Of a stretch of DNA of 64,000 bases, positions 17,786 to 50,212 are shown piece by piece (position 1 is the first letter of the stretch; each line of letters starts with the position of its first letter). The DNA comes from Polytrichum commune. Its lineage: Eukaryota > Streptophyta > Polytrichopsida > Polytrichales > Polytrichaceae. The stretch is taken from NCBI GenBank assembly GCA_950295325.1, contig OX485805.1, positions 15,673,501 to 15,737,500 of the forward strand. Reading direction: 5' to 3'. The notes beneath the pieces are model-generated. The model was given only the letters and a program-made list of their open reading frames with translations. It did no database searches and was not told the origin of the DNA. Made by a program: the position numbers and the translations under genes.

Positions 17786-18130
17786 GGAGCCACGAGGGAA
17801 CGTCAGCTGCAAATTGCGAGTGCAAATGTGCATACTCTGCGTAAAGCGGAGAGGAAGCATGAGAGAGAGAGATAGAGAGAGAGAGGTCTGAGAAGTTGCG
17901 CCTACAAAGAGTCCCCTGGAGGAGAGAGGACGAGGAAGAAGACGAAATTCATGTCCAATTGTGGTCAGCAGCTTCAAAGGCCAAGGTCGGAAGCAACCAC
18001 TTGAACGCTGGCACAGTCCGCAAGGCCAACGAGGATAGTCATCGCTTCCATTTCTTCCCCACCATAAACTTTCAACCACATCCAATTGATGTGCCTACGA
18101 CAAGCCGTGAGAATGAAGAAAAGCGAAAGT
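17786..18130 (-). promoter_or_regulatory. CT-rich leader of the flavoprotein gene
   Basis: The minus-strand sequence before the chosen start is open for 100 codons and includes a run of CTCTCTCT (17864-17885), as is common in plant 5' untranslated leaders. That is why I place the start after it rather than at 18085. No TATA box is obvious. Confidence 0.45.
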
Positions 18131-24494: not shown

Positions 24495-27400
24495 ATGGAT
24501 TTCCTGATGAATGCTGCGAAGATTGCACAACAAGTGCAAGGGGGAGGGAAGAAGCCACATGGAGGGGCATCGGAGGCAGAGGATGGCCCAGGGATGCATT
24601 CCGCAGGAGGGTCGAAGCCCAGGCCTCCCCGTGACGATGAAGAGTATGATGATTCAGGGCCACATGCTAGCCAACAATCTGCACATGGTGGGGTGCCTAA
24701 GAAGAAAGCTTCCACATCTGAGCTCTATGGCAGTGCCCAGGTTCACCCTCGTCCTAATATTTTAGTGATTTTTGTACTTAGAAGCTTGGATGGAGGGATG
24801 GACCATGGGCTGTTTGAAAATCATCTGCATTTCGTTTATCTTTGGAGTCCAGGTTCCAGGTCTCTGTTTCTGTCAAGATTCGGTTTGACTATTGTTGTAC
24901 TGAATTTCTGAAGACCACTAAGAAGACATGATAATGGTGAATTTAGAATTAAGATTAGGTTAGAAATTAGAATTAGGATCAAGGGTTCAGTACTTGTATG
25001 TTTTCTCGGTGTTTATGGGTCCTGGCCATTGATAGAAATGCATGCCGAGGCCTATTGCCACGTCTGAGCTCTATGGCAGTGCCAGGTTTTCCCTCTTTCT
25101 AATATTTGTTGCACTTTGAAGCTTGGATGGATGGAGTATTGATTGCTTGAAAATAGCGTCCATACTTTCTTACGAGTTAAGTTTTGGGTTTCTGTTCTGG
25201 TCAGTCTCCGGTTGTTGGACTAATGTTGTACTGTACTGTAATTTGAAATACCACCAAATGGTGTTGAATTTAGAATCTGGCTACATCTAACCCTCGATCT
25301 AATGTCTGGTGCATTTTTTCGAGCCTTTAATGGAGGGAGATGGAATGTTTGAAAATCATTAGCATTCAGTTTTTCTTTGGAGTACAGCTTTCAGGCTTCT
25401 GCTTCTGTCAGCCTTGGGTTGGACTATTGTTGTACTGAATTTTTAAACACCACCAAGAAGACATGATAATGGTGATGTATGTAGTATCTGATCACATCTG
25501 AGCTCTATGGCAGCGCCCAGGTTTGTCCTCGTTCTAATCTTTGTTGCATTTTGAAGATTGGATGGATGGAGTTTGATTATTTGAATCAAACTTATTTGAA
25601 TGGCATTTACTTAGAATCTGGTTAGAACAAAGGATGCAGTACTTGTATGTTTTCTTGGTGTTCAAAAGTCCTGGCTATTGAAGATTATGCGTGCCGTCAT
25701 ATCTTAGCTCTATGGCAGCACTAGGTTTACCCTGGTTCTAATATTTGCTGCATTTTGGATCTTGGATGGACGGAGTATTGATTGTTGAAATTGGCGTTTA
25801 TTTTGTCTTTGGGTCCAACTTTCAGGTTTCTGTTCTGGTCAGTCTCTGGTTAGACTAATATCGCATTGAGTTTTTAAACGCCACCAAGGAGCTCAGATAA
25901 TGGTAGTCAATTTAGTGGACAAAGAAATTTGGGTCTGGTAGGATTGAGAGTCCCGGCAATTGGTGGGAATGCATGCTGAGGCCTTCTGAATATTTTGGGG
26001 ATTTTGCCAAAATGGTTTCATTTTAGAAGCTTGGATGTACATTAATTGTTTGGAAATGCACGCATGTTTTCTTAAAAGTCCAACTTTCAGGTTTCTGTTC
26101 TGGTCAAGCTTCGATTATTTAGACTAATATTGTCTATTTTAAAACACCATCAATAAGCTCAGACAATGGTGATGAATTTAGAGGGAGCTGTGTGAGGGTT
26201 ACGAGGGTACTGGAGGAGAATTTTTAGCATTGGTAGTTGTTGGGTAGGAAAACTGTACCACATGGGAAGAGCACTCATTTAAAAAATAAAATAAAAATAA
26301 AAATTTGAACGTGATATTTCATTGTTGTAAGATTCTCCATCTCTACTGGACCTAAGATTCCTTTCTGTACCTCATATCGTTCATTGTGGTGCTCTTGTGG
26401 ATGATTATAAGATGTTTTGGGTTGGCTTACAGACGCTCTACCAAGCTGCTTCTGGAGAGAAAATGGATGCTGGGAAGCTTGCAGGTAATTTTCCCAGTAC
26501 ATGCTTTTGCTACCTGGTAGCTGAACTTGGAGGTTACTTGTTTTGGAGTAATGAGTAGTTTGTATTTTCAAGAAGTTCCAGACAAATCAACTTACAGAAT
26601 CTGTTCTGGCATTAGACTGGACCCAGCCAATGGTAAAGCAGGATTTAGGACATGTTCAGCATTCATACTCAGTAGTGAAATAGAACTGGTCAACAAGGTG
26701 CTATAGAGACAGTCAAACTACATGGGTTTACATTTCTTAATTGGTTTCGTTCACATTTTGATTTTGGAATTCAATTTTAACAGGTGGAATCCTGGGTCTG
26801 GGTAATGCAGCATAGCAATTTCTTAGTATCCCATAATGGTTGGAAGTTAAAAGAAGTGATCCAATCATGTATCATCACAATTTCAAGACTATTGTGAGTG
26901 TATCCTGTGTAATTACAAATCAAAGTTGCTGAAACTGGCTGGTAGGCCAAGATCTTGAGGATGCCAATTACCTGTTTAGTACTTATATATGAAGAAGTGA
27001 AATGAAAAAGATATGTCTGGCCCTGTGTTTGAAAATGCAGCGGCAGCATCGGACCTGTTGGGAGGACTATCAATGTACGGAGGTTTGGATAAATCTCCTT
27101 ATGGTAATTATGTTGAGCAAGCAAGTTCATACCTGGATAGCTATGGACAGACACATGGAGCCCCAGGTGCCAAGGTTCCAGCGAAACCCTCCAGCGGTAA
27201 GAAATATTGAAGATGGTTTTGTTTATTTGCTAATTAATGAAGTCTTTTGTTGTACACTAGCTTGGACCTGTGCTGCCCTAGCCTGTTGCACCCGTGTATA
27301 TGAGAGTGGGTTCACATTGGGGTTCAAGACCAAAGAAACTTTAAAATTGAGAGACCCAATTTGTCAAGAGAAATTTTTTGGAACCAAGGAGTTTACACTG

Positions 27401-29392
27401 GGTCCCAGCAATAAAAAAATGAAGTGGTGCTAATGCGGCACCAGTTTCCTGACAAATCTCATTGGCCCCAAGCAAATACTTTTAGTTTAAGAAACCAATC
27501 TTGAAGTTCCAAACTGTGATGTTACAAACATTATTTTGGCATGTTCTGACAATTCCTTGGTGATGAGCTGCATGTAGGTCAAGGCCGTGTAGACGACGAA
27601 GATTATGAAGGTGGCCCGCGACCTCAGAAACCACAGCCATCAAAGTATGACTCTGAAGAATCCGGATATGATGGGCGACCTCAGAAGCCCTCCCCTTCAA
27701 ATTATGAGACTGAAGAATCTGAGTACGGTGGACGTCCCCACAAGCCTCAACCATCAAAATATGATTCTGAAGAATCAGGGTATGGTGGTCGCCCACAGAA
27801 GCCTGCACCTTCAAAATACGAATCTGAAGAAGCAGGATATGATGGAGGACGTCCTCACAAGTCTCAACAACCATTGCAATATGAATCTGAAGAACCAGGC
27901 TATGGCAGTCGCCCTCAGAAACCTGCTCCCTCAAAATATGAATCTGAGGAAGCAGGATACGGTGGAGGACGTCCTCAGAAGCCTCAATCGTCACAATATG
28001 AGTCTGAAGAATCCGGATATGGTGGCCGCCCTCAGAAACCGGCACCTTCAAAGTATGAAACTGAAGAAGCAGGATATGGTGGAGGACGTCCTCAGAAGCC
28101 TCAATCGTCACAATACGAGTCTGAAGAGTCTGGATATGGTGGTCGTCCTCACAAACCTGCTCCCTCAAAATACGAAACTGAAGAATCCGAGTATGGTGAG
28201 CGTCCTAGTAAGCCTCGACCCTCGCAGTATGAAAATGAGGGTTCTGAGTATGGCGCACGTCCTCAGAGGCCACAAGGTTCGTCGGCGTATGGATCCGAAG
28301 AATCGGAGTACAGTGGCTACTCTCAAAAACCTCAAGTGTCGAACTATGATGCTGAAGAATCGGAGTATGGCCGACGTCCTCAAAAGCCGCAGCCTTCAAA
28401 GTATGCTTCTGAAGAATCAGAATACGGTGGCCATCCTAACAAACCGCAAGCATCGCAGTATGGGTATGAAGAAGAATCAGGGTATGGTGGTCAAGGCTAT
28501 TCTCAAAAGCCTCCTGCTGCTCAATATGGATCAGAAGGTGCAGTCTTCTTTCTCAGTCTTCATTGTTGCTGTAGTCATGTGGTGCTCTTTTTAAATACCT
28601 TCCCATTCCAAGGAATGCATATGGTCACTTAAAAATTGATCCTCACAATAATTATTGGCTTTCAAGTTTTTTGGGCCACTGCTGAGTGCTCATCTCACAC
28701 ATAAAGTCCATATATATCATAAATCTTCATTAAAGTTTTCCTCTAACTAATTATGACTTTGTGGTTGGGAGTTATTTGTTTTGCATACAGCACCTGATAC
28801 AGAAGTTTTTGGTGCATGCTGGGTGGTAGTGTGGAGGGTTTGAACGAAGAACATTCTATATCAGTTCAGTTCTTCTATATCAGTTCACTGAGGGATCAAA
28901 CTGAAATATGGTGCTCTTTATTCAAATTCAAACACTACCTCCAAGCATGGACCACAAGTGGAATGGAATTATTGATATTGTATGCAAAGAAACCAATGGA
29001 AATGACCCTCTCAATAATTCGGCTGGCAAATGTATGCATTTTGTGGGTGGAATGAGCTAGAAAGCCGACTAGTGGGAGAATCATCTTTCATTGACCATAG
29101 AAATTGCTCTTAAAATGTTTTTCAGCTTCAGATGGTACATCTGTTAGTAAATTTTGATATTTCTTGATAGTTTTAGTATTGGAAATGACCATCCATATCA
29201 AATGGGACCATTGTCTGGGGCTTTATTGTCTGCACAACTCCACAGAGGCGAACTGATTTACCTGTGCTTACAATTGAATATGCAGAGTATGGTAGTCAAG
29301 GACGTCCCAAGCCTCAGTCTAATTTTGAGGAAGCGGGGTACGGGGAGGAAGGCTATGGAAAATCTCAGAAGAAGAAAACCTGGTATGAGTAG
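24495..29392 (+). CDS. Nodulin-related protein (NRP1-like) with long Tyr/Pro/Glu repeat tail, 5 exons
   Basis: Exons: 24495-24740, 26433-26484, 27041-27196, 27578-28537 and 29286-29392. They give 506 residues, all junctions GT-AG and in phase, ending in TAG. The N-terminal 160 residues match plant nodulin-related protein 1: STSELYGSAQ, LYQAASGEKMDAGKLAG, AASDLLGGL, then YVEQASSYLDSYGQ. The family is small, soluble and linked to stress and ABA/heat responses in Arabidopsis. NRP1 is usually well under 250 residues. Here residues 155-506 are about 16 copies of a 19-20-residue unit of the type KYESEESGYGGRPQKPAPS, acidic, Tyr-rich and presumably disordered, ending in a basic QKKKTWYE. No signal peptide or membrane segment. 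The role of the tail is unknown. The repeat is also open in a second frame, which is not the real one because the splice phases fit only this frame. Confidence 0.9.
24709..26150 (+). repeat. Tandem degenerate repeats in intron 1, each starting with the exon-1 end
   Basis: The last ~30 bases of exon 1 (CTGAGCTCTATGGCAGTGCC, then CAG/GT) and the following ~300 bases recur near 25061, 25494 and 25704 with partial copies near 25280 and 25920. Shared marks downstream are GAAGCTTGGATGGATGGA, TTTCTGTTCTGGTCA and GACTAATATTGT. Spacing varies between about 200 and 430 bp. Three copies keep a usable GT donor after the duplicated exon end. Confidence 0.75.
27620..28537 (+). repeat. Coding minisatellite of 57-60-bp units in the nodulin-related gene
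   Basis: About 15 units in exon 4. Within them a two-unit block (about 117 bp, 27908-28150) is almost exactly repeated, showing recent dimer duplication. Invariant positions are Y at 2, EE at 4-5, Y at 8, then P-K-P. Unit number is likely to vary between individuals. Confidence 0.9.
28806..28955. mobile_element. Foldback MITE, family A, copy 2
   Basis: TTTTTGGTGCATGCTGGGTG faces CACTACCTCCAAGCATGGAC in intron 4 of the nodulin-related gene. It is related to 14290-14462 and 61765-61932. Confidence 0.7.
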
Positions 29393-30067: not shown

Positions 30068-33000
30068 CTAGCCACTTTTCAGTTGTATGGTAACTGCAAG
30101 TATGCGGTCAAGATATTGTGGATCTCGGTGCAGATTATGAACACTGTGTAAGATGTCCCTTACCACATCCGGTTTCTTAACAGCACATGCCTCAAGTGCT
30201 TTACAAACACCCTCCTGCAAAGAATGTGCATGACTGTGGGTTTAGTTGTAATGGGACCTATGTGATTCTTGGATGACTTCTTTATTGTCAATACCACAGT
30301 ACCTAAGATAAGCGGGATTAATTCAGTGATTTATTCTAAGTGAGCGCCTATATTTGTCTGAGTGGTTTGTTACTGAGCGTGGATCTAAGAAAGGACAACA
30401 AAAAGACATGTGATTAAAAGAGATTGGACTACATGCTCAATGTTCATTTACCATTCTAGGCTTAAGTGTCAACATAATTGGGAAGATCTGTGTGATAATT
30501 TTGTGTGATAATTTAATGTGCAAGAGGAGCTTCACTTTGAAGATGGATAAAATATTCATATGTGCTCCGAACATTACGAGGAAGATGGCTATCGCTACAA
30601 CTTACATTAGCTAATTATCTTGCATGAATGGGGTGTGCACTCATTTCTCATAGGATATGAAAGAGCTACAAGTGTCTGTTTAAGGCTCACTTACCACTGT
30701 TGCTTACAAGTGAGCAGGTCTGTTCTACTCTGATCATCACATCAGGCAACCTTGGCTCAGAAATGTGAGCAGTTGTGGTTATACATTTTTCATATGTTGT
30801 TCTTGATCTGTGTGAACTTAAGAAGTACTGGACACATGTGTATGATGTTTGACCTGGATTTTTGGGTGTTGGTCATCCATGTGGATGATGAGAAAAGAAA
30901 CAAAATCTTTCACCTGCAAAGCATGAAAATGAACCACACTGAAGTTACTTCATATGTGGTCGTTTAAACACTTTATGACTTGCTGCATGAGCGAGCTTAT
31001 TTGCATCTATGATTGGTACCATGAATAAGAGTGCACTGTATCAACTCTTGGTTGCCCGTGTGGATGTTCTCATCACCGTCAAGCACTCGGCATGGAGATT
31101 CTTCTATGTTTCAAGAATATCTAGGTGCGAGTCATGTTAAATTTCACTTTTATTTAAAGGAGAACGATGCTTTGAGTGAATTTGATGCTCATAGAGGGTC
31201 GCTGAGTGAGGAGAAAAAGATGTGTGTGTTTCCCATTGTAAGTAATAACTACTCTGAGCAATTCGAACACCCCAAAATGAACATTAGCTTAAGATGATAA
31301 TCAACTTCAATATGAGAGACATCTATCATCCGGTCTATGAACTTTGACAACCCCAAACTTGGATAGTTCTAACTTTCAAATGTATGTGGTATAATTTTAT
31401 ACATCTGTTTCTATGTTCCATCGACGGGTATCATGCCAAAACAAGTTTGTCAGTAACTGCTTGCACCAAGCCCTGCAACTTATAGAAGTGACGACACAAT
31501 AAAATTAATCATATTTTCGAGGACAAAGGGTTGAGTTGAACACAATTGTAAAATATTCGAGGATGAACTTGCTTGCTTACTTTGGAGTCGCTGAAAGTTG
31601 AAGACATTGTCGAGAAGAAAACAGTCACTGCTGGCAAAATACCGAGGCGGATGATGTTACTGCTGTCGTCCATGCGTTTCTCAAGAATTTTAATCAATCC
31701 ACTCCTGTCCTCATCTGTTTCAACATAACATAAGGCACGTTAGTTTTGTAGTGGTCAGGCCAAGGAATGCTGCTGACGTGTATCTTCCTGATTGGATATG
31801 AGGAGACGCATTATCACCCATACTTTATAATAACCCTGCCATGGCATGACCACTACATTTGCTAATGGACAAGTGTCACCCTGCCATTGGTTGGAGTAGG
31901 TATCCAAAACCTATCTTTGTTGCTACGGTTTGGTAGGCCAGGGTGCCTACTACAACATGTGGAAGTGATCCCCGCATCCATTAAGTTACCTAGCTTATAA
32001 AAACCGACACCAGATAACATTATTTAGTTTGGTGTAGCCAGGAAAATGCCATACAAGGTCCTAAACTAAAGTAGAGATACCATAAACCGTGAAAATAAGG
32101 TGATTCACATTGAAGATATGGTCTTAAAATCATGAGATCATTTTCCAAGATAGAAGAGAATGATTCACGAAGAATGCAAGTTGTTTCATATTTTGATTCC
32201 CTGTTTGAATTTTTTTTCAAATTTTCAAAGTGGAAAGTTTGTCAAACCCCTTACTCGTTCACTCGATTCTCCTTAAACTGAACACGGTAATGCTCATTTC
32301 CACACAAAACATCACCTAAACCGGTTAACTCATGAGTACATTAAACTGTGATTGATGATAACCAAACATGACTAAATTTGACCAAACTGACTTCACACGC
32401 ATTTCAAGCTCTCAACCTCGCAATTATCGGTTTCAGAAATGGCACTTCACTATTCTGACAGAAGCCTACTGCACGGGTAGAGGGTCGTTCACGGTTTATG
32501 AGATTTCTACCTTACACCTAATGGATGCTTGTCAGTAAGTAGATTCAACTTGAAATACGAGTTAGATTTTGGGTGAAGCACTCTATGAAGGTTCTATAAT
32601 TTACACCTGTCAAGATGGAGCCTGCGATTCGTATATATTGATACATCACATGTGTAGTCGCACGCCGGACATCCAGAAAATAGTCTTCATCGAGGCACGT
32701 TTTCACAACAGGAAGGAAGCCCTCGGGCATGCTTGTTATTTCTTCTATTTGTGCCTGCCATTACAAGCCTAGTCTCGATTCTTAGCACTTACTGTGGACG
32801 GTTAAGGTAGAAATACCATAACCCGTGAAAATAAGGTGATTTGCATTGAAGATCTGGTCTGAGAATCATGAGATAATTAATTTTCCAAGATAGACGAGAA
32901 GGATTCATGAAGAATGCAAGTTGTTTCATATTTTTTTGTCTTGTACAAAAAATTCCACAATTTTTGAAAGTGGAAAGTTTGTCCAACCTCCTAGTACTCG

Positions 33001-35424
33001 TTCACTAGATTCTCCCTACACCGAACACAATATTCCGCATTTCCATACAGAATATCGTCTAAATCAGTTACCTCATGAGTACATTAACACTTGACTCCCA
33101 GTGGCTACACTAAGTGTGCATGCATTGAAGTTGCCGCTGAGCCATGATCTATTTCAGAAATTGCACTTCACCATTATGACGGCGGTCTAGTGCACGGCTA
33201 GAGGGCGGTTAACCGCTTATGGTATTTCTACCTTAGCAATCTTCATTACTGTTGTGAAATAAGTTCCTCCATTTTCGAATAGCACTACATTATTTTGTCT
33301 AATTAGTGTGGGTTACCATTCGGAGTTACGTGTTGCTATAACGTAATACTGACAATATCGTTTTTATAACCAACTACGTTATATTATATAATAATCTTCG
33401 GTGTGCATAACCCCAACAATAATTGGCATTCCTTGTAAAGTTTTTGGGGGATTATAGATTTATAGTGTTGCCATTACTGTCACTTACAAAGCAAATTTTC
33501 ATCCAAATTTCAATCGTCCATAAAAATAACTCATCACAAGTGATCACAAGAGAATGTGGGGTTTTGGCCAACGAATGAACTCCTCCATCATCCATGACAA
33601 TATTTGTCCACTTTTTCATAAGAAGTGTCATTCAAAAAGTAACCATTGTGACATAAAATGCCATATTTAGTGTACTTATGTTATTTGGGTAAAAAATGAT
33701 ACTCTCAGTAAACTGCTATAGCAATGCGTAATCCACATTAATTAGACAAAATAGTGTACTGTACATTGTGAATTTTACAGTTTTTTGTTTTCATTTTTTT
33801 TAATTTTAATTTTTAAATTGCTGATGATTCATATCTTTAGATCCGAAGAGAATTGACGACCCTTGTCCCAGGACTTTAAGTTGTATTAGAGAACCTGGCT
33901 ACACAAATCTCTTTTCAAAAATGTCCCCAGCGCCACCATGGCACCATACCTTACAGCAGCTTCAGTCTGAGACGTAAACAATTATAACACAATAGAACAA
34001 TTTCAGTTCGAGTCACCTCCTCAACAAATACGCCACACTTGTAAATTGAAGGAGTGAGAAGTGGGCTAATTAAGGTGTACAGGCCTTACGCTGTTTCTTC
34101 TTTTTAAATCAGATATTTGAGTGGTGTGAGGTTAAGTGTGGATCTAAGAATGGACACCAAAAAGACACGTGGTTAAACGAGAATGGACTACGTGTTCAGA
34201 ATGTGTTAACCATTCTAGTCTCAATACTCAACATAACTGAGGGAGAACCTCTATGACCATTTAATGAGCTCAAGGAATCTTTATTGTGATAAGGAATAAA
34301 ACATTTCATATGAACTCCGAACATTATGAGGGAAATGGATATGGACACGATATGGAAGCGGCATCTAATAATTGCGTGTTTTTGCATCCTACGAGACGTT
34401 GGTGCATAGCTAGAAGTGTCCGTTAAAGGCCCAATTACCTTATGGGGCATTCCCACCTGACTTTAGTTAAGACCCATTTCCTAAGAACCGGGTAAAGCTC
34501 CCTCGGTTATAGCGGAGGCATCCGACTATCCCAATGCACCTACAAGAACTTGCTCCGGAGATTTTCAAGTACGTTTTAGTTAAGTAACTTTCACACATGT
34601 TCATGGTTTTTATCTACCAAGCAATGAATGTTGGGTAGTTTTTGTCCCATCCCCAAATGCCTTACCACTCACCTATCTTACCATCGGTTTTTGTTAATGA
34701 AGCTCCTCGTGCCCTCATAGCTAAGACTAAAAAGCAACCAATCACAAGGGTGGGAGGCGACACTTTTAAAGTTCCTATATTCTTGCCTCATGTTTAGGTA
34801 CCGATGGGAGGGTCGGTGGTTGAGGCTTAAAACCTCCACTTTCAAGCCATGCCACATCATTTGCCACCTAGGCTCGGCACTAAAAAGAGCCGTATGTGTG
34901 AACCCTAGATAACTGAAACCACTTGTAGACTAAAACTACTTCTAACTAATGTCAGGTGGGAATGCCCCATTAGCTAGTTATATTGACGTGGAGAAAGGTG
35001 TACCTTGCTTGTACGCCATACGGCAGAAGGAATGAGAAGTTTTCCAATTATGTGCGGAGCAAGAGGTGCCCATGATACTGCCAACTCTTGCTTCTCAAAT
35101 AACTCGTCCAACAACTGCTTCAATACGACACACAATGTTATTCAGAGTGCATGTTGATGAGAACATGAAAAGCTCGAGTGTCAAATTAAAGGGCCTGTGT
35201 TTTGAGAGTGTGTTGAGAAGAAATCTTATAAGTGCCTTTGACCCATGAAGATGTGTGGGCTCTTATGTGGCCACTCTTCTCAATTGCACACCTATATTGA
35301 GTAGAATGTGGCAACATTTGCAGTCAAGCATGGACACCAAAAAGACACATGTCACACTGAGATTGGACCGTCTGCTTAGAACATAAAACATAGACATAAT
35401 CTTAGGTGCGATAGTGAACATGAT

Positions 35425-35470
<46 letters not shown>

Positions 35471-38400
35471 CTTTGCTTTGACCTCTTATAAGTTTTGCAT
35501 CTTAATTCCAACTTCAAAACTTCAAATATCTTCATGGTTCATCGCAATTGTTAACATGATCAAGCAGTTCCCTAATTAACCCAACAACTAAAGTTGCATG
35601 TGGGGTTGGAAGTGCCTGCAATAGGGTCGCGTACTTTAGGTCATGGCTTTTGTGGATCTATGGTAACCGATCCTTCAAATTTCAAGTTCAAGTGTATTAC
35701 CTTGAGGAAGCTTATCCGCAGAGCAGGATCTTGGTGACTTTGGAGGCAAACCCCAAACAATGGCAAAAGGGACTCCAAATAGGGACCCACCTGCCAAACA
35801 TTGTCCCATGTTAAACAACAAATCTCCGGGTTCCACAAAAAATACACTGCACTAAATAGTCCTACCAATGTACCGAGGCCTTAAAGTGACACTTTAAGAA
35901 ACTTTTATTGTTTCAAGGTGGTTAAGATAGCTTGGAGAAATTTCCAAAAAAAAATCCATAAATTAGAAAATCCATACAAAGTCTACAAAATAGAAATTTA
36001 AAAAAAAAATTCATATGTAATCCACTTAAATTCTTAGAGTTGCCTAAAGGAAAGAGTCTTTTACCCTTAACTAGGCCCGGGGGGGGGGGGGTTCTATTGA
36101 TGTTGGATTGCTAAGTGAGAATCACCACAAAAATTGGCCTTATGGCAAGTGATGAGAATTTTCTATGAAATAAGGGTGTTGTCCATGTTTTGTGGATCAC
36201 TTCTTCCACCACCTTGTTGAGCAGATAGATCCCCGATTAGCCATTGTGATTGGCCAAAGTCGGTGCTCTTCTAAAAGTGTTCTTGCATCCTCCTTACACC
36301 CCTATTATGGATGGCCAAAGTGGTGATATTTTATACTTAATGTCGCAAATGATTGATCGCTTTTAACAATGACCTACTTGATGGCACTGTTGCACTCATT
36401 TGTTGACGGCTTAAGGATTAAAAATAGGCGTCACCAAAAGGGAAGGTGTTGCTTTAAGGCCTCAATACCTTAGTGTGGGCCACGATAATTCTATGGAGCC
36501 CAAATTGATTCTCATAATAAATTTTTTATGTGGGCTACGATAAATTTTCCACACACACCAAATCTTTAGTTTAAGATTCGTGTGGGCCACATTATCATTT
36601 GGTAAGAAGTCGATGTGGGCGAATATTTTATTTTATGCTACTTTTGATGTAAGGTGACTATTTTTTTCTATGTAAGATGTTGGTTGGCCGGCTCAAGGAA
36701 AACCAAGGGCAAAACTTGAGGTCTTAGACCCATGTTCTTTCCACCCCAACTTGACATTTAGAACGACCCACATTAAAAATTTCCACGCTAATTTCCATCC
36801 ATACTAATATGATTCTTTAGTGTACTCGTTAGCAAATTAGATGAATGCATCTTTTGTGTCGTTTGTTCGACAATGAATATACATTGTTCGCCACAACAAA
36901 TGACTTTAGAACCTAAAACAAATGGTGAGGATTATAATGTTGGTTGTTCTTACTGTGTCACTGGCATTCCGCATGAATGTTTGGAATAGGAGCTTTCCAG
37001 GCAAGCCTGATGACCAACCTTCATGGCCAGCAGTCACAATGTCCATCAGGCTGTGGATGTGCTGCACATATAGTTCCCTTGTCGCCTGCATTCCCAAGGC
37101 ACTCGCAAGCCAATTTAGGACTTCACCTGATCTCTTCTGCAGGTGTGGATCCTCTTCAACACTCTGCAACTGCATCCACTAAAAAATTGTTAAAATGTAT
37201 TTCCACATCACACACTAGAGAGGGTAAGGAAATCAAACCGGGGGTGGGGTAACTCCATTGTAGTGCGATAAAGGGGTGTTTCGGTGCGCATAAACATGGA
37301 GTATTCCATCTATTTGGTGAATATTCTAGATATATAGCTAATGTATTCTCAAAGAAGTTTTATGGTACTCTATGTTTATGTACTTTTTTCTTATGAATTT
37401 TACTCCTTTGGATTTTATTCCACCCTATAATTCTTTACACATGGTTCTTGATATCTCACAAAGAGTGACCTCCACGAGAAAACAAAATGGGAAAAGAGTG
37501 CTTACCTTCAAGAGCAGAACAAATAACTTGAAAGATGAGGATTTACACAAAGGGCCAGCCACTTGGATTATATTTGACACCACAGCTAGAAGCTGCACAA
37601 CAACTCCGGTCAGCACTGATGGAGCTTGATGATACCAGGGCCACACCGGTAGGCCCAGCCAAAAACACTAGCCCTACGTATTCTCCGGGAATACAGGGCC
37701 GGGAATACCATATGAAATCCCAGCCCTGTATTCCCGAAGAATACGTAGGGCTGATGTTTCTGTCTACTGGAGCTGCTGGGGTTTTTGGTGTGGCCATGGT
37801 ATGACTCCCCAAGAGCATCAAAAATTACAACATGAAGAATCAAGAATTCCTTGCACAAAGCATTCTCATTGAACCGTATTGCCAAGTCATGTAAGGCACT
37901 TGCCAAGCAGTAGCCATTGATGGAACAATGTGAAAAGCCATTGGACAATGGAAAACTGGATACGAAGACTTGAAAGTTGGATGCATGATAAGGTGGTGAT
38001 TGCTCTGGTCAAGGTAAATACTGTGGGTAGAAGTACATTTGTTACTTACTTTAAGCAACCCTATAGTGTTTCCCACAACATAACATTATTCAGATTCATA
38101 ACAATGTTCTATGGGATTGACAGTACTTCACGTAGTATTCCCGGATATTCTCCACATTTAGACTGAATGTAGGGAACATCCAGGAATACTACTTGAAATA
38201 TTGTCAAACCTACAAAACATTGTTCTGGATTTGAATAATGTTATGAATATGCACCATCATATAAGAAAATACTGCAACCCTTGTTAAACTTGTCATGCTC
38301 CCGTGACATTCCCATCTCCTTCCCCTAGGGTGGAAGTCGTCAAATGCATACTATTTCAATCCAATAGAAGTATTGTAACTTACTACGCGGACCTCTGATG

Positions 38401-41400
38401 TTGAAAACTGTGGTTGGAAAAACAGTGTGCCAAAGTTTTTAGTGTAAAATTCACCTCAAAAGTGTGGCGCATGGTATTTAGCGTAATCAGTTTAGACCTC
38501 ACAAGTGATGGGCAATCAATAGGCGCTGAGGTTTAATCCAGATCCAAAAACATAAACCAAGGAAGAAAAAAGATCCCATAACGCATTTATAATGATGAAC
38601 ATTGAAAAATAGAAGATCGGCTCTGTAGTAGGAATATACCTGGTTCTGGACAGCAGTATGGTCACTACAAGATACTTCTTCTTTGTAGAGCTTCTCAGAC
38701 AGCTGTAGGTCAAAACAATGAAATCTGAACAAGGAGTTGAAACATTTCATACATGCTTTAAGAAGGATATCTTATGGGTCATCCGATGCCCATTATAGAT
38801 TTTACGATCATCTAGTGGTCAGGCCAAACGACTTTGTTGACATGTCTATTTCTAATTGGATACGAGGAGGCATTTGATCATCTGTAATCGATGATCTTGC
38901 CATGACTTTACCACTATGTCCGATAATGGAGACATGTCGTCCTGCCATCAGTTGTAGTAAGCACCCAATACTTACCTTGTTGCCACCCCGGCTCGCTAGG
39001 TTGGGCGCTTTTGACAACCTCTGGTAGGACTTCTCACATTCATTACTTAAGGTAGATGAGGCTAATTTGGTTAGATTCTTTAATTGGACACATATTTTTG
39101 GCTCCTAATTGACAGTATAATCGCTTTAATTCGTTGGGTGAGTAATACATGGTGATTTAGTAGCCGCCTTGATGATATTTGGGTGAGTCACTTTTGCAAA
39201 AGTCAAACTACACTCAACATCCTTCATAATTAGGAGTGCTATAGCTATGACATGCTTGATTTTTGTGTCCGAGGTGGGAAAATTAGGAGGTGGCATGTGG
39301 CTGTGAGGTGCCGACCAACTTTGTGTTGTGGGTATTCTAGAATGACGAAACAATTTGACAACATTTTATCTTACATGTGACCATCCTAGAGACATGACAC
39401 AACCAATATTGGCATTGAAACTTGGATTTCAGTGGCAAATGGGCTAGAATGTAGTCCATGTAGAATGGGCTAGTGATGTTGTCCACTTACACAACATTGA
39501 ACGATAAAAGAGTCCCCCTAATAGCACCACATTGAGAAGTAGAGATTCCGGAACCTAGATCAACACCTTCCTTAACTCCGATTTCAATGTTTTCAAATTT
39601 TTGTTCCTGATTCGCAATCGCTAGCTTGCTCAAGCTTCTAATGCTTGAATCCATCGGTTGGATGATTCCACGGAGCTGGAGGTATCCACAGTATCCTCAT
39701 CTACCTTAGTTTAGAGTGATAACAGTTTAGAAATGCTCCAGAATCTCCAGTCAACCATAATGTGGAGGTTTGCAGACAAAAATTACACCAACCTTCACAA
39801 CATGCTTTTCCTCCATAGCCGAGCAGGGTGTTCCATACAGCAACGCAGCAATTACAACAAGCACATTTGCTCTCTGGGACATAAACAAGACAATCCAGAC
39901 AATTATTAGCAGACAGAGCACATGATGGTTTAATCAATCAATATACAACTCATTTCATAGTGTCCACAGCTATGCAGATATATATATATATATATATATA
40001 GCTGCAGGATTTGTTTACTGGTTATACCTTGACACCGATAGACTATGAGAAGAGATCAATAACAAGAACGACGGTTTCAGCAAAAAGAGACCTGAGCTTG
40101 GCTTGTTTTGGTACTCTCAAGGGGTTTCAGTGCAACAGGCAACCATTTCTTCGGGGGCACATGAAATCCAAGAATGTGCACCGTGGAAACAACCAACTTT
40201 GCGACTTTGACATCATCATCACCTACTGCACTGCAGTGACTCGCCAGTTTCTTGTGTCACATTTTCTTCTATCATAATAGCAAAGCATCGATTATTATCA
40301 GTTAGAAATTGTAGCTTTGATAAAGTTCAACCCATTTTGGACAACTATGCTATTCCACAAGATCCGAAACTTATATGTGGAGCTGGGAGGTGCATGGATG
40401 CAATGGTTCGAGGGCTCGCCTACAAAAAGCTGGGATCAGAATGTCAAGGTGATCCTTTGCATGCGCCTCAGCCAACACCTGAATCACCAGCCACCAAGTC
40501 TGGACTCAAAGGTCTGAAATTGCATATTTAAAAGAAAATAACGATTTATAATTTAAAACTTCACTGTTAATTTTCTTAACAAGGGTGCCGGGACTGAAAA
40601 CAGAGAGCGAGGAAGATCTTTAGAGTGCACGCGATGGGACCGAACAATCCCAAGAAGTGTGGCAAGACTCCCAAGCATGATCAACTGAGCCAACATTAGG
40701 CGACTTGACGTTCTAGGAGATATTGGAGTTCGATCGGATGTAGGGTCATCAGTAGCGATTCATCAGAGTTATTAGCTATTCAATGTTCACAAAATATCAA
40801 GGACTTACTAAGATATTGTTAGGTGCTGATGAGGATGTAAGAGCTACCAACCAGAACGGTATGGAGAAGGCGAGCTGCACCCAATCTGGTTGGGGTAGTC
40901 CACTGTTTTAGCTCCTGAAGAGCTGGAGTTAACATTGGTCGCAAGAACGCCTGTAGAATCATTCAAATCGTTTCCTCAGAGAACATCTTTTCCCAAAAAT
41001 AGAGCAACCGTCATGAGCAAGTTGGAGAACAAAACATAAGGAAACACTACAATATAAGGCATTACTCTGCATTTCTCCCTCCATGCAACTTCATATCTTT
41101 CAGAAAATCGTTGCAACCACGAGGTGATAATGGTACAAAGCAGATATAGAAATTCAGTAAACTGTAGCTAGGTTACTATGTGCTCATGTATGGGCTGTCA
41201 ACATGAAGAAGTGGCTTGGTTCACAAGTACTCCCTGATTGGTTCACAAAATGATTGTCCTACTTCCTGGATATTTTTGTCCCAAATTGATTGTCCGGTGT
41301 ATCTATATGGCTAGAAAATTGAGGCTCAAAGTCAAATAATTTCGTGCCAAACTTTTTGTATTAAGAAGCCTTTCGACACCACAACTTTCGGGGGTATTTT

Positions 41401-44400
41401 GGAGTAGTTGTTGTTTTTATTTATTCTAAGAGTCATACTTACAACTACTTGACCAATGGTGAGCGGGCCTTAATCTTGCCAAAGTTAGAAGCACAAACAA
41501 TCGTTTTGGGATGGAGGGAGTACATGTTACTAGTGTGGAGAACTAGCAGTTCCAGTCAGGGTACTACACTAAATATCGTATTTAGTGTCACCAATTCTAT
41601 TTGTCTTGCTCGATACTAACTGTAAACTGCCTATGTAGTGTCACCAACACTAAATGTAAACCTAATATTATTTGTCATTCCTTGTAATTTTTTTGGGGGG
41701 GCATTATAGATTTACAATGTTGCAATTATTCTCACTTACTAAGTGATTTTTAATCCAAATTTCAATCACCCACGTTGATATTTCATCATAGAATTTTCAG
41801 AATGCATAATATATCAAACCTTGCTTCAGTAATTAGCATGGATATTATCCAAATTTCAATCATCCATGACATTACTTGTATACTTATTCATGAGAAGCGT
41901 CATAAGAAAAATTACCATGGTGACATAAAATACCATACGACACTAAATACAATATCTAGTGTACTTCATTTCAAGACCATTCTTATTGTAGAAATGATAG
42001 GATTCCCGTCTACTAAGGGCCACTTCCACCAGAGCTTGAGGACCCGTATCCACTGAAATCTAAAATCTCTCTTGGGTGGAAATTGCCAAGACTGTGCCCA
42101 CTTCGCTTTACACTAGAGCTTGAGGGTCTGAGGGACCACGAAAGTTTGAATGGATGAAAACACCTACACGGATACCTACATGGCATGTAATGAATGATGT
42201 TTCAAAGTCGTATACCCCTTAATTTAGTATGATGTATTGCGTATTGCAATGCTTTACAAAGTGACAAAAGAACCAAGAAACACACATAGTAGACGAATTC
42301 ATTTCGTATCACCTCCCAATCTTAAATATTTCGAGTCCCCCCAAAATCATGAAGTTCCTAGATGTCATTTCCTAGCATGTTGGAAAAGGTCATGAGGAAT
42401 TACACATGTAGCCATCACATTCAACATGATGGAAAAAGTAAGTTAAAAGGGCATAGATTTTGGTTCCTGACAAAGGGCACTAATTGCACTCAAGTTTTCG
42501 TCTCCCAATTATCAGAAATACGTCAACCTATACTATGAAATATGGGTCAGGAGAGAATCTTCCCTTTTGAAAATTTACAATAATTTAAAGACTTAAAAAT
42601 AAATTATAATATTTTTTGTTGTTGTTAAACACTGGATATCAATTTCCAGACCTATGGAAAATAACCCCAATAGTACTACATGTACGTGAAATAGCTTACG
42701 GATATAGTTAACGGAAATAGTTAACGGAAATAGTTAACGGAAATGGTTAACGGAAATAATTAACGGAAATAGTTAACGGGAATAGGTCTGCCTAGTCTAC
42801 ATACCTCAACCATGAGGCGGGAACCTGCTCCCATTCTGCATTTGTAAGGCTCAGGCAACTGCAAAGTCTCCAAGCCTGGCTCCCCAGCATCGGCTCTCTG
42901 GACTTCGTTCTCCTCTTCAGGCCCTCTGGCCTTGTTAGTGTGCAACTCCGAACCTCCAAACTCTTCCTGAGGTTTTTGATGATCGAAGTGCGATGGTGAT
43001 GCTGCCACATCTGCCTTTCCCACTTGCTCATCACCTTCAACTTCCCCGTTATGAGTCAAAGCATGAAGGGCATCTTCTGAGCAATTCACAGGGCACTTCG
43101 TCTCGCTCGCATTGGCTAACAACTCCGTGTCGCATTTAGGGTCTAGCTCATCATTGATATGGTGTAAATCATTCTCTTTGGTTTGTAAGGGTCCTTTTGC
43201 AGATGACATCCCTTGATCTTCCTCTCCAGTGGCTTTTGCAAATTTATCTCCACATTTTTCACATCCTACTAAGATGTCCTGTGGTGATGATGATCCATTA
43301 CGTTTCATCGACTCGTTTGGATGCGGTGGTGGTGTATCTCTTTGCGGCTTATCTGAGAAATGTTCCTCACTAAATACTTGCAAGTCGGTGTCAATTATTG
43401 TTTCCACCGACGCAGTAGCCTCGAGCTTGCCATCCTCCTCCTCTGTTCCGCACAAAACAACCCTCTTCTGATTGTTGTTGTCGTTGCTGTTTTTGTCACC
43501 AGGGGCTCTTTTTGCCAGCCTTGCTTCTTGTGGTGACTTGTAATTTGGACCTGCTGCATTATGCGTTTTCAAAACTGTGTCATAAATGTTTTCTGCTGTC
43601 ACCTCTGATGTTTGGGCATGGCCGCCTTTTCTTGTTTTCTCTGTCTCCTGTTCTTGGGGTAGGGGTACATTGTTCAATACTTTCTCAACAAGCGCCTCAA
43701 CAGCTTCACCTCCAATTTTTGTTGTTTCACATGTGATCTCTTTACATAATGTTTGTTGGGGTGTAACCTCATGTGGTTCTTGAGGTTCTTGTTCGGCCTT
43801 GCGTTCTGCATCCAGCTTACGCATCTCTTCTTCATATTGCTCTTGACATTTTCTATCTTCCTCCATGATTTGTTCGAGTATCTTTGCGTCTTCTTCGACG
43901 GTATTGTACCTTCTGCCGTTTTTCCCCTGTCACATCTAGGCACGTTAAATCTCTCTTCCTTTCTCAGAGCTGTGGGCGTCATGTGGTGGTCACTCTTAAT
44001 TCAACACCTACATTTAAGTGCTAAAATTGCAAGGTTTGTAGTTAAGAATGAACACCAAATAGACATGTGTTACGATGAGAATGGACCATGTACTGTGCTC
44101 AGAATACAGACACCATTTTAGGTTCTACAATGAAACAATTAGGAAGGGCTATTTGATCACTTGAAGAGAAAGAGAGTCTTCACTATGACCTCCTATAACT
44201 CTTGCATCTCGTGAAACTCCGATTCTGAAACTTGAAATGACGGTATTCGTGATTCATTGCAACTGCTAAGCGTATAAAAGTATTCCAGATTTTATCAAAC
44301 GGTCAAAACTGTATGTGAATTTGGAAATGCCCACGATGGGGCCACATACCTTACAACTTGAACTACTGGAACCCTAAAAGTGTGTGTAATGCAGGCAATT

Positions 44401-47211
44401 TCACTATAACATGAAATGCTGTCATTATAGAGAAAGAATTGCATATTATTAAGAATTCGGTTACTGACATACCTGCACAGTTCGGATATCTATATTATCA
44501 ATGTACTTTTTATAGAGGTCGCCGATGCTTTCAAGCCTTCCAAGAGTTGATGTGGCAATGTCTGGGCAATCATCTGTGATGCCCAACAAGAGGAGTGGTA
44601 GGAGTTCGGGAATATGAAACCGTGGCGTTCTCCCTTGAACCACCAATTTTTGGATCTCCTCATCACTCTGATTTCTCTCCTTGTAGTGTAGCCAGTTTGC
44701 AACACTGGCAAAGAAAAGCTGCAACATGAAGCAAGGGCATTATTGCATTTGAAGCAAGGGTATTATTGCGTATGGAGCAAATGGATCACCATAAAGGCTA
44801 AAGTTATGGCAGTTTTGTAATGGAGAGACCATTCTGTACCTCTCTAACACTTGTGGTATGGTCAAATGCCAAGGACTTAGTACCAGGCGCCAGATGTTGA
44901 GCGATCATACTCGCTGTCAAACCACATTGCACCATAGCATCAATGGCTTGCAAGATTGCAATTCTTACCTGCAAACAAGTTTTTCAGATGACACACGAGT
45001 TTCAGACTTGACCTACTTTTGTGTTTCATGGGTGCAATGCTTCGTACAATTGAACAAAAGAAAGAAATCTTCTGGAAGTTTTTTTACAAAGTTTAGGTTG
45101 AATACAAGTGATGTGCTAAAGTGCATTTAGAACAACACATAGTCTATGGATCACCCGAGAATGTGAGTGGTTGAGGCCAGGAACAAGAGCTTTTAGGAAA
45201 ATCCCCGTCTTGTTTCCAAATACATCCGGGTCACGATAGGCCATTGTGACAAGGACGCTACAGGCACTCTTCTGCACTTCGTGGAAATGATCAAATAGAG
45301 TCACAGCCAAAACCTGTATTGATCACAAACAAAATCAGCTAACACATCGACTATGCTAGTAATTATGATTTGATGTAAGGTTCTCATAATGTCCCTCGTC
45401 CTTTTGACATGGTTTTATGTAAAAGACCATATTAACCACAAGAAGATCTGGGAAGCAAGAAGATCCAAACCCTCTGTAGAGGATCAACAATTGCTTGAAG
45501 TGCTTGAAGGGAGCATTCAGGAAGCAACACGTCGATCAATAGTGAAAACAACTGCAAGCGAATTTCTTCAGAGTCTTCTAACACAGGAATCTGTCCTGCA
45601 CCATCATATTCATGTAACACTTATTCAGCAATTACTGTCTGACACGTGAAACCTTTTAAAAGGTCCCTGCAAAAACTTAGTCCTTGTAAATCAGTAGCCT
45701 AGAGACACCCGAGTCTTTTAAACCAACAGACTTCAAAGGTATGGACAGGTTAGTTCATATGCCTAATTCTTTAATCTTCAACAGAGACTTCAAGTAACGT
45801 AGTTTTGAGAGAGTTCAAAGTCCTACAAAAAATTGAAGGAAATGAAGAAAAGGTTCAAGTGCTTATGATGTACCCATTCTTTCGGCCATAGTGTTTACAG
45901 TCTCCTTCAAGGTATGGTCCACCTGCAACTCCACAAAGGACGAACCCAGATTAATGTTTTTATTCACACCTTCAATCACCTGCTATTATGGTTATAACCG
46001 ATCCCTTAAGCATCAGACACTGAAAAATACCTAACGCAATTGCCACTGTTGCATTATACAAAAGATGTCCAAATTAAAATCATTTATATTGCAATAGTGA
46101 ACAAATTCGGACATAGCAATTACAATACATAAATATTTCAGTATGTAGGAAGCATTTGGATTACCTCGGTGATTGCGCAGGCCACATCTCTAATGAGCTG
46201 GATAGCAAGTTCTCTGCATTTTTCGATGCGGTCACTAAGACGCTGAAGGACGAGCTCAAGGATCTTCTCGTCCCATGCTGCCTGCATGTACAACACCCAT
46301 GTAAATTACAAACTTGTGTGTTGTAGTCTTGAGGCAACTTGCATCTCTGTAATGTAGGTATACCCAAAATCAATACATCACCTAAACCCAACACTATGTA
46401 CGACTCTCATAAATTTAAAGCATGCTTTGTCTGACTATGATACATAATGTTGGCTTTTGGTAGACATACCTTAGCTCCCTTCTCTTCATTGTTGGAAGCT
46501 GTTGAACCTATTTCTCTAGCCCTAATAGTTTCTTCAACGTATGAAACAAAAACTTGTGTGATTACTTCAAACTTTTGTATTTAAAATCTCATCTGTGGGC
46601 ATTGTGTACCGAAACCCAACACCATGTACCTGTCTTACATTTGACTGCCTGAACTGTATGACTGATACTTCGTATATGTACTTGTGTTCAATGGCGGAAG
46701 CTGGTAAACCTATTTTCTAGCAATATAGTTTCTTGTATATAATGCACAATAAAATGCATATGATTCCTTCAAACTTTTGCAATTAGATCTGTCATCTGTG
46801 GGCAAGCTTCTCACCTGTAAAACATCCATGGGTGGCAAAGACCCTGCGCCGTCATCTTTCAGCAAACACACCTGGAGTTTCTGTAATGCTCTTTTGCGAG
46901 TGGGATGGTCTTGGTCTGACAAGCAATTCAGGGTTCTCCGAATCGACTGCACCAAAAGGTAATTTCAACTGAAAATCGGATGACCCATACATGTCTATCA
47001 AATATTAACCTTATGACATTGATGAGAGAGATTCGTGCATTCCATCTCTAGGATGCAGGAATCATTCAGAAAATTGGTTGCAGACATTCAAAAAATCATT
47101 CAAAAAATTGTGCAATTGTGGGTTCGGGTCAATTACCTGGCAAAATGCAGACACCACTTCTTCCTTTGTGACTTCCCTTGGGTACCCTAATTCATCAAGA
47201 ACCTCTGCCAT
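30068..47211 (-). CDS. DNAAF5: Dynein axonemal assembly factor 5 (HEATR2), 23 exons, with a 374-codon extra exon
   Basis: Cytoplasmic HEAT-repeat factor for pre-assembly of axonemal dynein arms. Exons: 47211-47137, 46946-46815, 46281-46165, 45922-45874, 45595-45471, 45313-45155, 44968-44840, 44718-44473, 43926-42805, 40950-40852, 40478-40420, 40230-40092, 39873-39793, 38702-38640, about 37909-37806, 37178-36954, 35790-35701, 35117-35004, 33966-33895, 32754-32607, 31714-31581, 30913-30854 and 30214-30068. About 1,230 residues. Fragments align along human DNAAF5 in order: VRIAILQAIDAM (WKVRVAAIEATGAV), LPLLLLGITDD, ARLLHTVLVLAEAHAKDHLD, GPYLESLLPLFGVCLQSHQD, then the end segment LIIHMDDQHPKIQ. 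Without exon 9 the length is about 860, near the human 855. Intron 11 is GC-AG. The exon 14-15-16 joins are unresolved. The frame is open 16 codons before the chosen ATG, so the start may lie in an unseen upstream exon. Confidence 0.9.
30380..30610. repeat. Dispersed repeat, family C, copy 1
   Basis: It contains GTGGATCTAAGAAAGGACA, ATTGGACTACATGCTCAA, CATTCTAGGCTTAAGTG and GCTCCGAACATTACGAGGAA. Relatives lie at 34133-34370, 35325-35640, 44040-44360, about 50590-50690 and about 51250-51440. No ends or coding region defined. Confidence 0.7.
32067..32515. mobile_element. MITE, family D, copy 1 (left of DNAAF5 exon 20)
   Basis: Ends AAAGTAGAGATACCATAAAC and GGTTTATGAGATTTCTACCT are inverted copies. 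It shares CGTGAAAATAAGGTGATT and GAAGAATGCAAGTTGTTTCA with the second copy at 32803-33236 in the same orientation. A third, partial copy starts at about 50075. Confidence 0.82.
32803..33236. mobile_element. MITE, family D, copy 2 (right of DNAAF5 exon 20)
   Basis: Ends TAAGGTAGAAATACCATAAC and GCTTATGGTATTTCTACCTT, 434 bp apart. It is a direct repeat of 32067-32515, with the 148-bp DNAAF5 exon 20 between them. Confidence 0.85.
33285..33762. mobile_element. MITE with TTTTGTCTAATTA ends
   Basis: ACATTATTTTGTCTAATTAG faces TAATTAGACAAAATAGTGTA over about 29 bp with few mismatches. The interior shares GGCATTCCTTGTAA and ATCCAAATTTCAATC with the element at 41562-41967, so the two are related despite different ends. 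Confidence 0.75.
34133..34370. repeat. Dispersed repeat, family C, copy 2
   Basis: It contains GTGGATCTAAGAATGGACAC, CAAAAAGACACGTGG and GAACTCCGAACATTATGAGG, shared with 30380-30610. Confidence 0.7.
34443..34969. mobile_element. PIF/Harbinger-type MITE, 527 bp, TTA target duplication
   Basis: TGGGGCATTCCCACCTGACT faces GTCAGGTGGGAATGCCCCA, with direct TTA at 34440-34442 and 34970-34972. It lies in DNAAF5 intron 18, 35 bp from exon 18. No coding capacity. Confidence 0.85.
35325..35640. repeat. Dispersed repeat, family C, copy 3, with (GA)n inside
   Basis: It shares ATGGACACCAAAAAGACACA with the other copies and, further on, GTTGGAAGTGCC with the copy at 44040-44360. A (GA) microsatellite occupies 35426-35468. 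Confidence 0.7.
36077..36092. repeat. Poly-G tract
   Basis: An uninterrupted run of G in DNAAF5 intron 16. A similar run occurs near 50687. Confidence 0.8.
37634..37803. mobile_element. Foldback element abutting the DNAAF5 exon 15 donor
   Basis: The core arms AGCCCTACGTATTCTCCGGG and CCGAAGAATACGTAGGGCT are almost perfect complements over about 34 bp. Weaker pairing extends to GGCCACACC and GGTGTGGCC outside. Exon 15 ends at or inside its right edge. Confidence 0.75.
38079..38245. mobile_element. Hairpin MITE, family B, copy 2
   Basis: ATAACATTATTCAGATTCAT faces TTTGAATAATGTTATG. It has the same family and layout as 22065-22223, here in DNAAF5 intron 14. Confidence 0.78.
39979..40000. repeat. 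(TA)n microsatellite
   Basis: Eleven TA units in DNAAF5 intron 12. Confidence 0.95.
40231..40419 (-). other. Putative GC-AG intron (DNAAF5 intron 11)
   Basis: The exon ends TTTTGTAG and the intron begins GCGAGC, ending in CACTGCAG. Frame and length then match human DNAAF5 residue for residue across HLDILIPAFCSAVGDDDVKV. The alternative GT four bases upstream keeps frame but drops three residues. GC donors are a known minor class spliced by the ordinary spliceosome. Confidence 0.6.
41562..41967. mobile_element. MITE with TACACTAAATAT ends
   Basis: GTACTACACTAAATATCGTA faces GACACTAAATACAATATCTA. Its interior is shared with 33285-33762 and its ends with 22369-22887. It lies in DNAAF5 intron 9. 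Confidence 0.72.
42347..42680. repeat. Dispersed repeat, family E, copy 1
   Basis: It shares GATGGAAAAAGTAAGTTAAA, AAGGGCACTAA and GAAAATTTACAATAATTT with 50761-51085 in the same orientation. Both copies are about 330 bp. No ends defined. Confidence 0.8.
42698..42787. repeat. 13-bp minisatellite beside the DNAAF5 exon 9 donor
   Basis: Six to seven tandem copies of ACGGAAATAGTTA with single-base changes start 18 bases inside intron 9 on the minus strand. Confidence 0.92.
42805..43926 (-). other. DNAAF5 exon 9: 374-codon lineage-specific insert
   Basis: It is open throughout in the frame set by both neighbours (acceptor GTGACAG, donor GAG/GTATGT). It begins with a likely coiled coil (LEQIMEEDRKCQEQYEEEMR, then KLDAERKAEQ) and continues as low-complexity sequence rich in E, K, D, N, S and P, with one CxxC (GCEKCGDKF). 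Only its last ~15 residues (EPYKCRMGAGSRLMVE) look like the normal protein, lying in the region of the human PPHERRPVLGCRELV linker. Confidence 0.85.
44040..44360. repeat. Dispersed repeat, family C, copy 4
   Basis: It contains GAATGAACACCAAATAGACA, GAGAATGGACCATGTACTG and GATTCATTGCAACTG, shared with 35325-35640. It lies in DNAAF5 intron 8. Confidence 0.7.
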
Positions 47212-50186: not shown

Positions 50187-50212
50187 TTTTAGGGTTTAGG
50201 GTTTAGGGTTTT
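50187..50212 (+). repeat. Interstitial plant telomere-type repeat
   Basis: Three TTTAGGG units in a row plus partial units (GGTTTTAGGGTTTAGGGTTT...). It is short, so either a telo-box or a repair scar. Confidence 0.85.

Follow-up and report, generated by a model that had tools for sequence, protein, structure and literature searches.

We report that exon 9 of a DNAAF5 (HEATR2) gene, present on the minus strand of the 64-kb stretch of DNA analysed here (the window), probably consists of an old 54-nt core and a 1068-nt in-frame 5' extension for an acidic, disordered tether of 356 residues that starts with a charged helix. Eukaryotic proteins often carry disordered inserts between blocks of repeats, HEAT proteins included, and the insert alone is therefore a modest finding; the testable novelty is a putative splice switch, which is suggested by the splice signals in exon 9. 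DNAAF5 acts early in the building of dynein motors for swimming cells by a mechanism that is unsettled, and a natural DNAAF5 with its halves on a long tether would suggest that rigid joining is not needed. The gene and its main parts are as follows (window coordinates):

30068-47211, minus strand: coding part of DNAAF5 (HEATR2), 23 exons, 1214 aa (spliced model and Pfam)
44473-47211, minus strand: exons 1-8, aa 1-344, N-terminal TPR_DNAAF5 block (Pfam match aa 33-333)
42805-43926, minus strand: exon 9, aa 345-718, 1122 nt, 374 codons, phase 0 at both ends, no stop (coding statistics)
30068-40950, minus strand: exons 10-23, aa 719-1214, C-terminal HEAT block (HEAT_DAAF5 aa 704-891 and further HEAT-like sequence)

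The exon ends were set by hand on the basis of open frames, GT/AG signals and homology to human DNAAF5, and the model was assembled by a script. It runs from 47211 to 30068 with GT/AG at 22 of 22 introns and encodes 1214 residues with no internal stop. Phase 0 was seen in 19 of these introns, and many exon-skipping or alternative-site events would therefore keep the frame. The weakest donors in leave-one-out scoring are those of exon 11 (-1.46) and exon 16 (1.45); weaker sites such as these may be misplaced by a few codons, and exon 9 is unaffected.

Two family-specific Pfam domains were detected in the translated model, TPR_DNAAF5 (PF25757) at aa 33-333 (E 2.1e-46, 158.8 bits vs a gathering score of 27, profile positions 1-279 of 288) and HEAT_DAAF5 (PF24573) at aa 704-891 (E 6.5e-28, 98.2 bits vs a gathering score of 31.9, profile positions 5-189 of 194). 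Both are located on one chain with TPR_DNAAF5 N-terminal to HEAT_DAAF5, which is the order in human DNAAF5/HEATR2, and with both above cut-off in an intact 23-exon model we retain the assignment of the gene to DNAAF5 made in an earlier note on this DNA, as well as its placing of the insert between two HEAT-type blocks. BLASTP against a human DNAAF5 sequence gave two main collinear blocks at aa 68-333 (28%) and aa 712-1205 (25% identity); the full 1214-residue protein had no match in PDB at E up to 1. The DNAAF5 encoded here is a variant in that its inter-domain spacing is atypical, i.e., 370 residues in the long form (333 to 704) and 14 in the short form (see below) vs nine in human DNAAF5 (327 to 337; first 593 residues scanned). 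Moreover, the predicted product is 1214 aa in the long form, 858 aa with exon 9 cut to its core and 840 aa without exon 9, and human DNAAF5 is given as 855 aa in a table of PMC12633730. The earlier statement that the human protein has almost nothing at this point is thus in keeping with both the spacing and the length.

Judged by its coding statistics, exon 9 is a genuine coding exon of a DNAAF5 orthologue. It is bordered by the acceptor gatgtgacag/GGGA and the donor TGAG/gtatgtag (the slash marks the exon border), and the bounds 42805 and 43926 with phase 0 on both sides match exactly the earlier description of an exon in frame with both neighbours and open for 374 codons. The plus strand has many stops in the same interval. 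None of 1000 dinucleotide-simulated sequences reached an open run of 374 codons (the longest was 210), and the longest run in the sense frames of the joined DNAAF5 introns was 132. Codon log-odds, trained on the other 22 exons vs the introns, was 0.231 per codon in the annotated frame, 0.086 and 0.008 in the other sense frames and at most 0.115 in antisense; the best frame of intron windows reached at most 0.010 (207 overlapping windows), a comparison that somewhat favours the coding call since the introns doubled as negative training set. For the 1068-nt extension, the codon-position chi-square was 80.4 (the maximum of 208 overlapping intron windows was 14.7), the T content 0.171 vs at least 0.280 in intron windows, and the A+T content 0.539, which resembles the remaining exons (0.533) more than the introns (0.617). 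Both coding measures are lowest in its middle third (log-odds 0.132, chi-square 19.0), and codon periodicity is strong in its last third (chi-square 39.3).

These data bear on the possibility that the extension is an intron misread as exon, with the 54-nt core alone forming the mature exon 9. The core has a proximal acceptor stronger than the distal one (see below), the latter is located three bases after an in-frame stop, and the resulting 858-aa product would be near the human length; however, with 374 open codons reached in 0 of 1000 simulations, a chi-square above the intron-window maximum and a T content below the intron-window minimum, we consider this reading highly improbable. The retained intron that the earlier note had raised is likewise strongly disfavoured, as periodicity, codon usage and composition are outside all intron windows tested. 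An internal in-frame intron could also split the extension, e.g. from a donor at 43377 to an acceptor at 42858 (519 nt), which would make the true insert shorter. This pair has the top combined score (15.3) among 859 in-frame internal pairs of at least 60 nt, but with 859 donor-acceptor pairs compared some high score is expected, and the strong periodicity of the last third also argues against such an intron, which appears very unlikely. We consider it very likely that the extension is translated in the main transcript.

Beyond self-matches, no further copy of exon 9 was detected in the 64-kb window, nor any internal similarity within the exon 9 protein, and the whole window gave 0 Rfam matches at gathering scores. 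Repeats in or next to exon 9 were limited to a minisatellite in the adjoining intron and a 12-nt match in two copies (42841 and 43182), the latter judged to be due to chance. The minisatellite has a 13-bp unit, GAAATAGTTAACG, and covers 42688-42785 in intron 9 (7.5 copies, 89% matches) at most 20 bases from the exon 9 donor; it is pyrimidine-rich in the sense direction and could help or hinder recognition of this donor.

Within exon 9 we distinguish the following features:

42859-43926, minus strand: 1068-nt extension encoding the predicted disordered insert, 356 residues, aa 345-700 (periodicity, composition and pLDDT)
42805-42858, minus strand: exon 9 core LPEPYKCRMGAGSRLMVE, 54 nt, aa 701-718; the HEAT_DAAF5 match begins at aa 704
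43792-43899, minus strand: predicted single charged helix, exon residues 10-45, aa 354-389 (AlphaFold2 without alignment)
43252-43263, minus strand: CxxC (CEKC), aa 566-569

The border between extension and core was delineated by scanning the N-terminal part of the protein, up to the end of exon 15, with HEAT_DAAF5. With the 54-nt core alone (the last 18 codons) the match scored 99.6 bits and started at profile position 5, and with exon 9 wholly removed it scored 90.4 bits and started at position 25. This drop indicates that the exon 9 tail is part of the conserved protein, so that a transcript skipping exon 9 would lose the start of HEAT_DAAF5. Of the 374-residue insert proposed earlier, the long insert on exon 9 therefore stands, but its size is reduced to about 356 residues since the last 18 codons represent the conserved start of HEAT_DAAF5.

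Glutamate makes up 14.7% of the insert, which has an acidic, polar composition and lacks Trp. Its hydropathy of 0.377 is below the charge-hydropathy boundary of 0.446 and that of the flanks, 0.509, is above the boundary of 0.419; with TOP-IDP 18 of 18 sampled 41-residue windows centred in exon 9 ranged between 0.181 and 0.349 vs at most 0.176 in the sampled flanks. AlphaFold2 without alignment usually gives poor scores, and the mean pLDDT of 46.9 obtained in this way for exon 9 alone (below 50 at 278 of the 374 residues) is for that reason by itself no proof of disorder. Composition, charge-hydropathy and pLDDT agree with the insert being disordered, as had been suggested from the sequence. 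The low-complexity character also ascribed to it was not recovered in an entropy test, which gave 0 SEG-like windows (12 residues, at most 2.2 bits) in 374 residues and a whole-segment entropy of 4.02 bits. CEKC is, as had been noted, the single CxxC of exon 9, which has ten cysteines in all.

The charged helix is the confident part of the prediction, with pLDDT values of 91, 96 and 94 for the blocks 11-20, 21-30 and 31-40, and two further short helices are predicted at exon residues 73-85 and 111-124. In the helix region (exon residues 9-46) 21 of 38 residues are charged and the best heptad register has hydrophobic residues at 7 of 11 a/d positions, alanine counted. The coiled-coil start proposed earlier is better described as one predicted charged helix; the heptad pattern is imperfect and a coiled coil possible but weak.

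A Pfam search with the exon 9 protein gave no relative. Two PDB matches (E 0.066 and 0.47) were weak and judged to be chance, and pattern searches for relatives gave two hits among viral contigs and 44 among the genomes of bacteria and archaea, none of which was confirmed. Using regular expressions, PIH (DSD[DE], [DE]S[DE][DE]), MYND (PxLxP) and EEVD patterns were absent from the 356-residue insert; CK2-like [ST]xx[DE] (7) and S[DE][DE] (2) occur but are generic and were judged uninformative.

It has been suggested that the insert recruits a specific plant-only partner, which might occur via the helix or short motifs. One confident helix and two shorter predicted ones, in a chain otherwise modelled with low confidence, would qualify as binding-type elements, and moss sperm reportedly keep HEATR2 with inner arms only (PMC4168999), so that the partners of DNAAF5 may differ there; against this, the insert lacks a Pfam relative as well as a credible PDB relative, and the PIH, MYND and EEVD patterns are missing. 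On balance we find recruitment of one specific partner unlikely. That the insert acts as a flexible spacer first, with weak multivalent contacts, and not as a carrier of a folded domain, has in our opinion about an even chance of being correct.

The splice signals that bear on the origin and use of the extension are:

42859-42860, minus strand: predicted proximal 3' splice site AG, gagactttgcag/TTGCC, in frame, score 9.3
43927-43928, minus strand: distal (own) 3' splice site AG, tagatgtgacag/GGGA, weak, three bases past an in-frame TGA
42803-42804, minus strand: exon 9 donor GT, TGAG/gtatgtag, leave-one-out score 7.56 (median of 22 is 5.9)

The proximal acceptor, TGGAGACTTTGCAG/TTGCC (TTTGCAG, first exon base 42858), preserves the frame, and its use would reduce exon 9 to precisely the 54-nt core. 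Using splice-site matrices built from the other introns of this gene (21 sites in the acceptor matrix) it scored 9.3 vs 5.09 for exon 9's own acceptor, which is the fifth-lowest of 22, and a gene median of 7.5; five of the 22 real DNAAF5 acceptors score as high in leave-one-out. Splicing exon 8 to 42858 in silico gives 858 residues without a stop. The sequence signals thus correspond to alternative 3' splice sites, with two in-frame acceptors (first exon bases 42858 and 43926, both phase 0) and one shared donor. With the strong in-frame acceptor at 42858, which the earlier note had missed, the likely picture is no longer that of an inserted exon but of an exon extended at its 5' side that may be optional.

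We weighed this against the reading that exon 9 is always used in full, that the proximal acceptor is a chance TTTGCAG or a dead relic, and that the insert arose as a disordered expansion specific to the lineage, without any switch. The extension is unlike an intron and has codon-level structure, as would be expected if it were always included, and the sequence upstream of the proximal site is T-poor; the T fraction in the upstream 40 nt is 0.175 for the proximal and 0.225 for the distal acceptor, and the acceptors of the gene span 0.15-0.47. A near-equal acceptor-like site at 43550 in the same exon (score 9.22) does not keep the frame and coincides with no domain edge, which demonstrates that acceptor-like sites do arise within exon 9. 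In the whole window, AG sites reaching the proximal score number 39 on the minus strand (real acceptors included) and 16 on the plus strand. On the other side, exon 9's own acceptor is among the weak ones of the gene (C+T in the upstream 40 nt is 0.35, shared with the gene's lowest), and no internal acceptor as good as the proximal site was found at 2171 positions across the other 22 exons. Moreover, the combination of score, frame and location on the conserved edge is improbable: the chance of an in-frame site this good within at most eight codon boundaries of the core edge is about 0.003 using the both-strand window density and roughly 0.014 using exon 9's own density (2 in 1122 nt), in a test that was chosen after the site had been spotted and is thus post hoc. 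The beginning of exon 9 is rich in enhancer-like 5-mers (10.0 per 100 nt vs 1.6 in other exons), and no enrichment for splicing enhancers beyond the amino-acid demand was detected there (15 seen, 14.3 expected, P 0.45). Taken together, we place constant use of the full exon slightly short of an even chance.

With respect to a 5'-extended exon 9, we think it just as probable as not that the proximal acceptor works or once worked, in which case the core would formerly have been a separate mini-exon that gained upstream sequence. In the simplest history, an ancestral 54-nt mini-exon would have started the second HEAT block, and a new distal acceptor would then have joined upstream coding sequence to it. 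The resulting 356-residue tether would uncouple the N-terminal from the C-terminal HEAT block and might contribute weak multivalent contacts in the cytoplasmic compartment where dynein is assembled. That both predicted forms, 1214 and 858 aa, are still produced is a tentative suggestion. Doubtful in its complete form, at the level of sequence signals, is a splice-switched DNAAF5 in which the balance between a weak distal and a strong proximal acceptor would set either a short linker (858 aa) or a helix-bearing 356-residue disordered tether (1214 aa). If such a switch is true, the insert would be a protein segment grown upstream from the ancestral 54-nt mini-exon, and a natural short/long pair, if real, would make the need for rigid joining of the halves testable in one organism without engineered proteins. 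Should relatives be without the insert, this would represent a datable gain of a disordered region by a splice-site shift.

The available parts of the literature provide some context for such a tether. DNAAF5 is described in PMC12633730 as a HEAT solenoid that bridges proteins and has a proposed role in an early preassembly complex; the part available presents it as a solenoid of ten predicted HEAT repeats and names no such insert, notes that disorder is common in other DNAAFs, and describes TTI1, a HEAT-repeat R2TP partner in PIKK assembly, as structurally similar to DNAAF5. In frog, Heatr2 occupies liquid-like assembly foci, in which its mobile fraction is close to 61%; knockdown of Heatr2 results in fewer dynein-assembly foci and lower Ktu mobility (PMC6349401, in part). 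In terminally differentiated cells, HEATR2 was found to bind the outer-arm subunit DNAI2, and a HEATR2 orthologue is retained in moss, the sperm of which have inner arms only (PMC4168999, in part); in Physcomitrella, the gene has thus been kept by a plant with swimming sperm (same source). In a land plant the binding needs of DNAAF5 may hence differ from those in animals, leaving room for change, and if the DNA is from a land plant with inner-arm-only sperm, the long form could adapt an early step of dynein assembly to the sperm stage. The available parts of PMC12633730, PMC8754002, PMC4168999 and PMC6349401 hold no description of a DNAAF5 insert, and none of the disorder terms tried occurs in that of PMC6349401; PMC10940205, on DNAAF disorder, may already treat DNAAF5. 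Searches linking DNAAF5 with bryophyte or Marchantia gave no literature, and HEATR2/DNAAF5 appeared in none of the seedless-plant papers among the matches listed.

Elsewhere in the window, a Pfam search with 20 other ORFs (ten at E up to 0.01 and ten at 0.1) gave matches for four, i.e., two exonuclease pieces above cut-off, and one FAD/NAD-binding and one TPR/MIT match below cut-off; none of these families is known to be diagnostic of a plant lineage. The exonuclease pieces belong to an Exonuclease 1-like gene on the minus strand (3741-6138) with XPG_N at 5947-6138 and XPG_I at 4473-4646 (Pfam), and a PDB match to Exonuclease 1 was obtained at 3741-4103 on the same strand (E 2.7e-08). Pieces resembling an FAD-dependent monooxygenase were seen at 16043-18094 (minus strand), where a Rossmann-type stretch (17627-18094) weakly matches NAD_binding_8 (E 0.0011, below cut-off) and 16043-16528 on the minus strand has no Pfam match. 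The ORF at 27001-27207 is reminiscent of plant nodulin-related proteins and had no Pfam match; like the TTTAGGG array described below, it is a hint at a plant lineage, which the earlier note had assumed and which is plausible. A 360-codon open frame on the plus strand (27550-28629), also without Pfam match, encodes roughly 19-residue repeats (RPQKPQPSKYESEESGYGG-like) with DNA periods of 57 and 117 bp; overlapping frames are open on both strands, as expected for tandem repeats. Finally, an interstitial array of TTTAGGG, the plant-type telomere unit, is present at 50188-50211 (24 bases, 3.4 copies).
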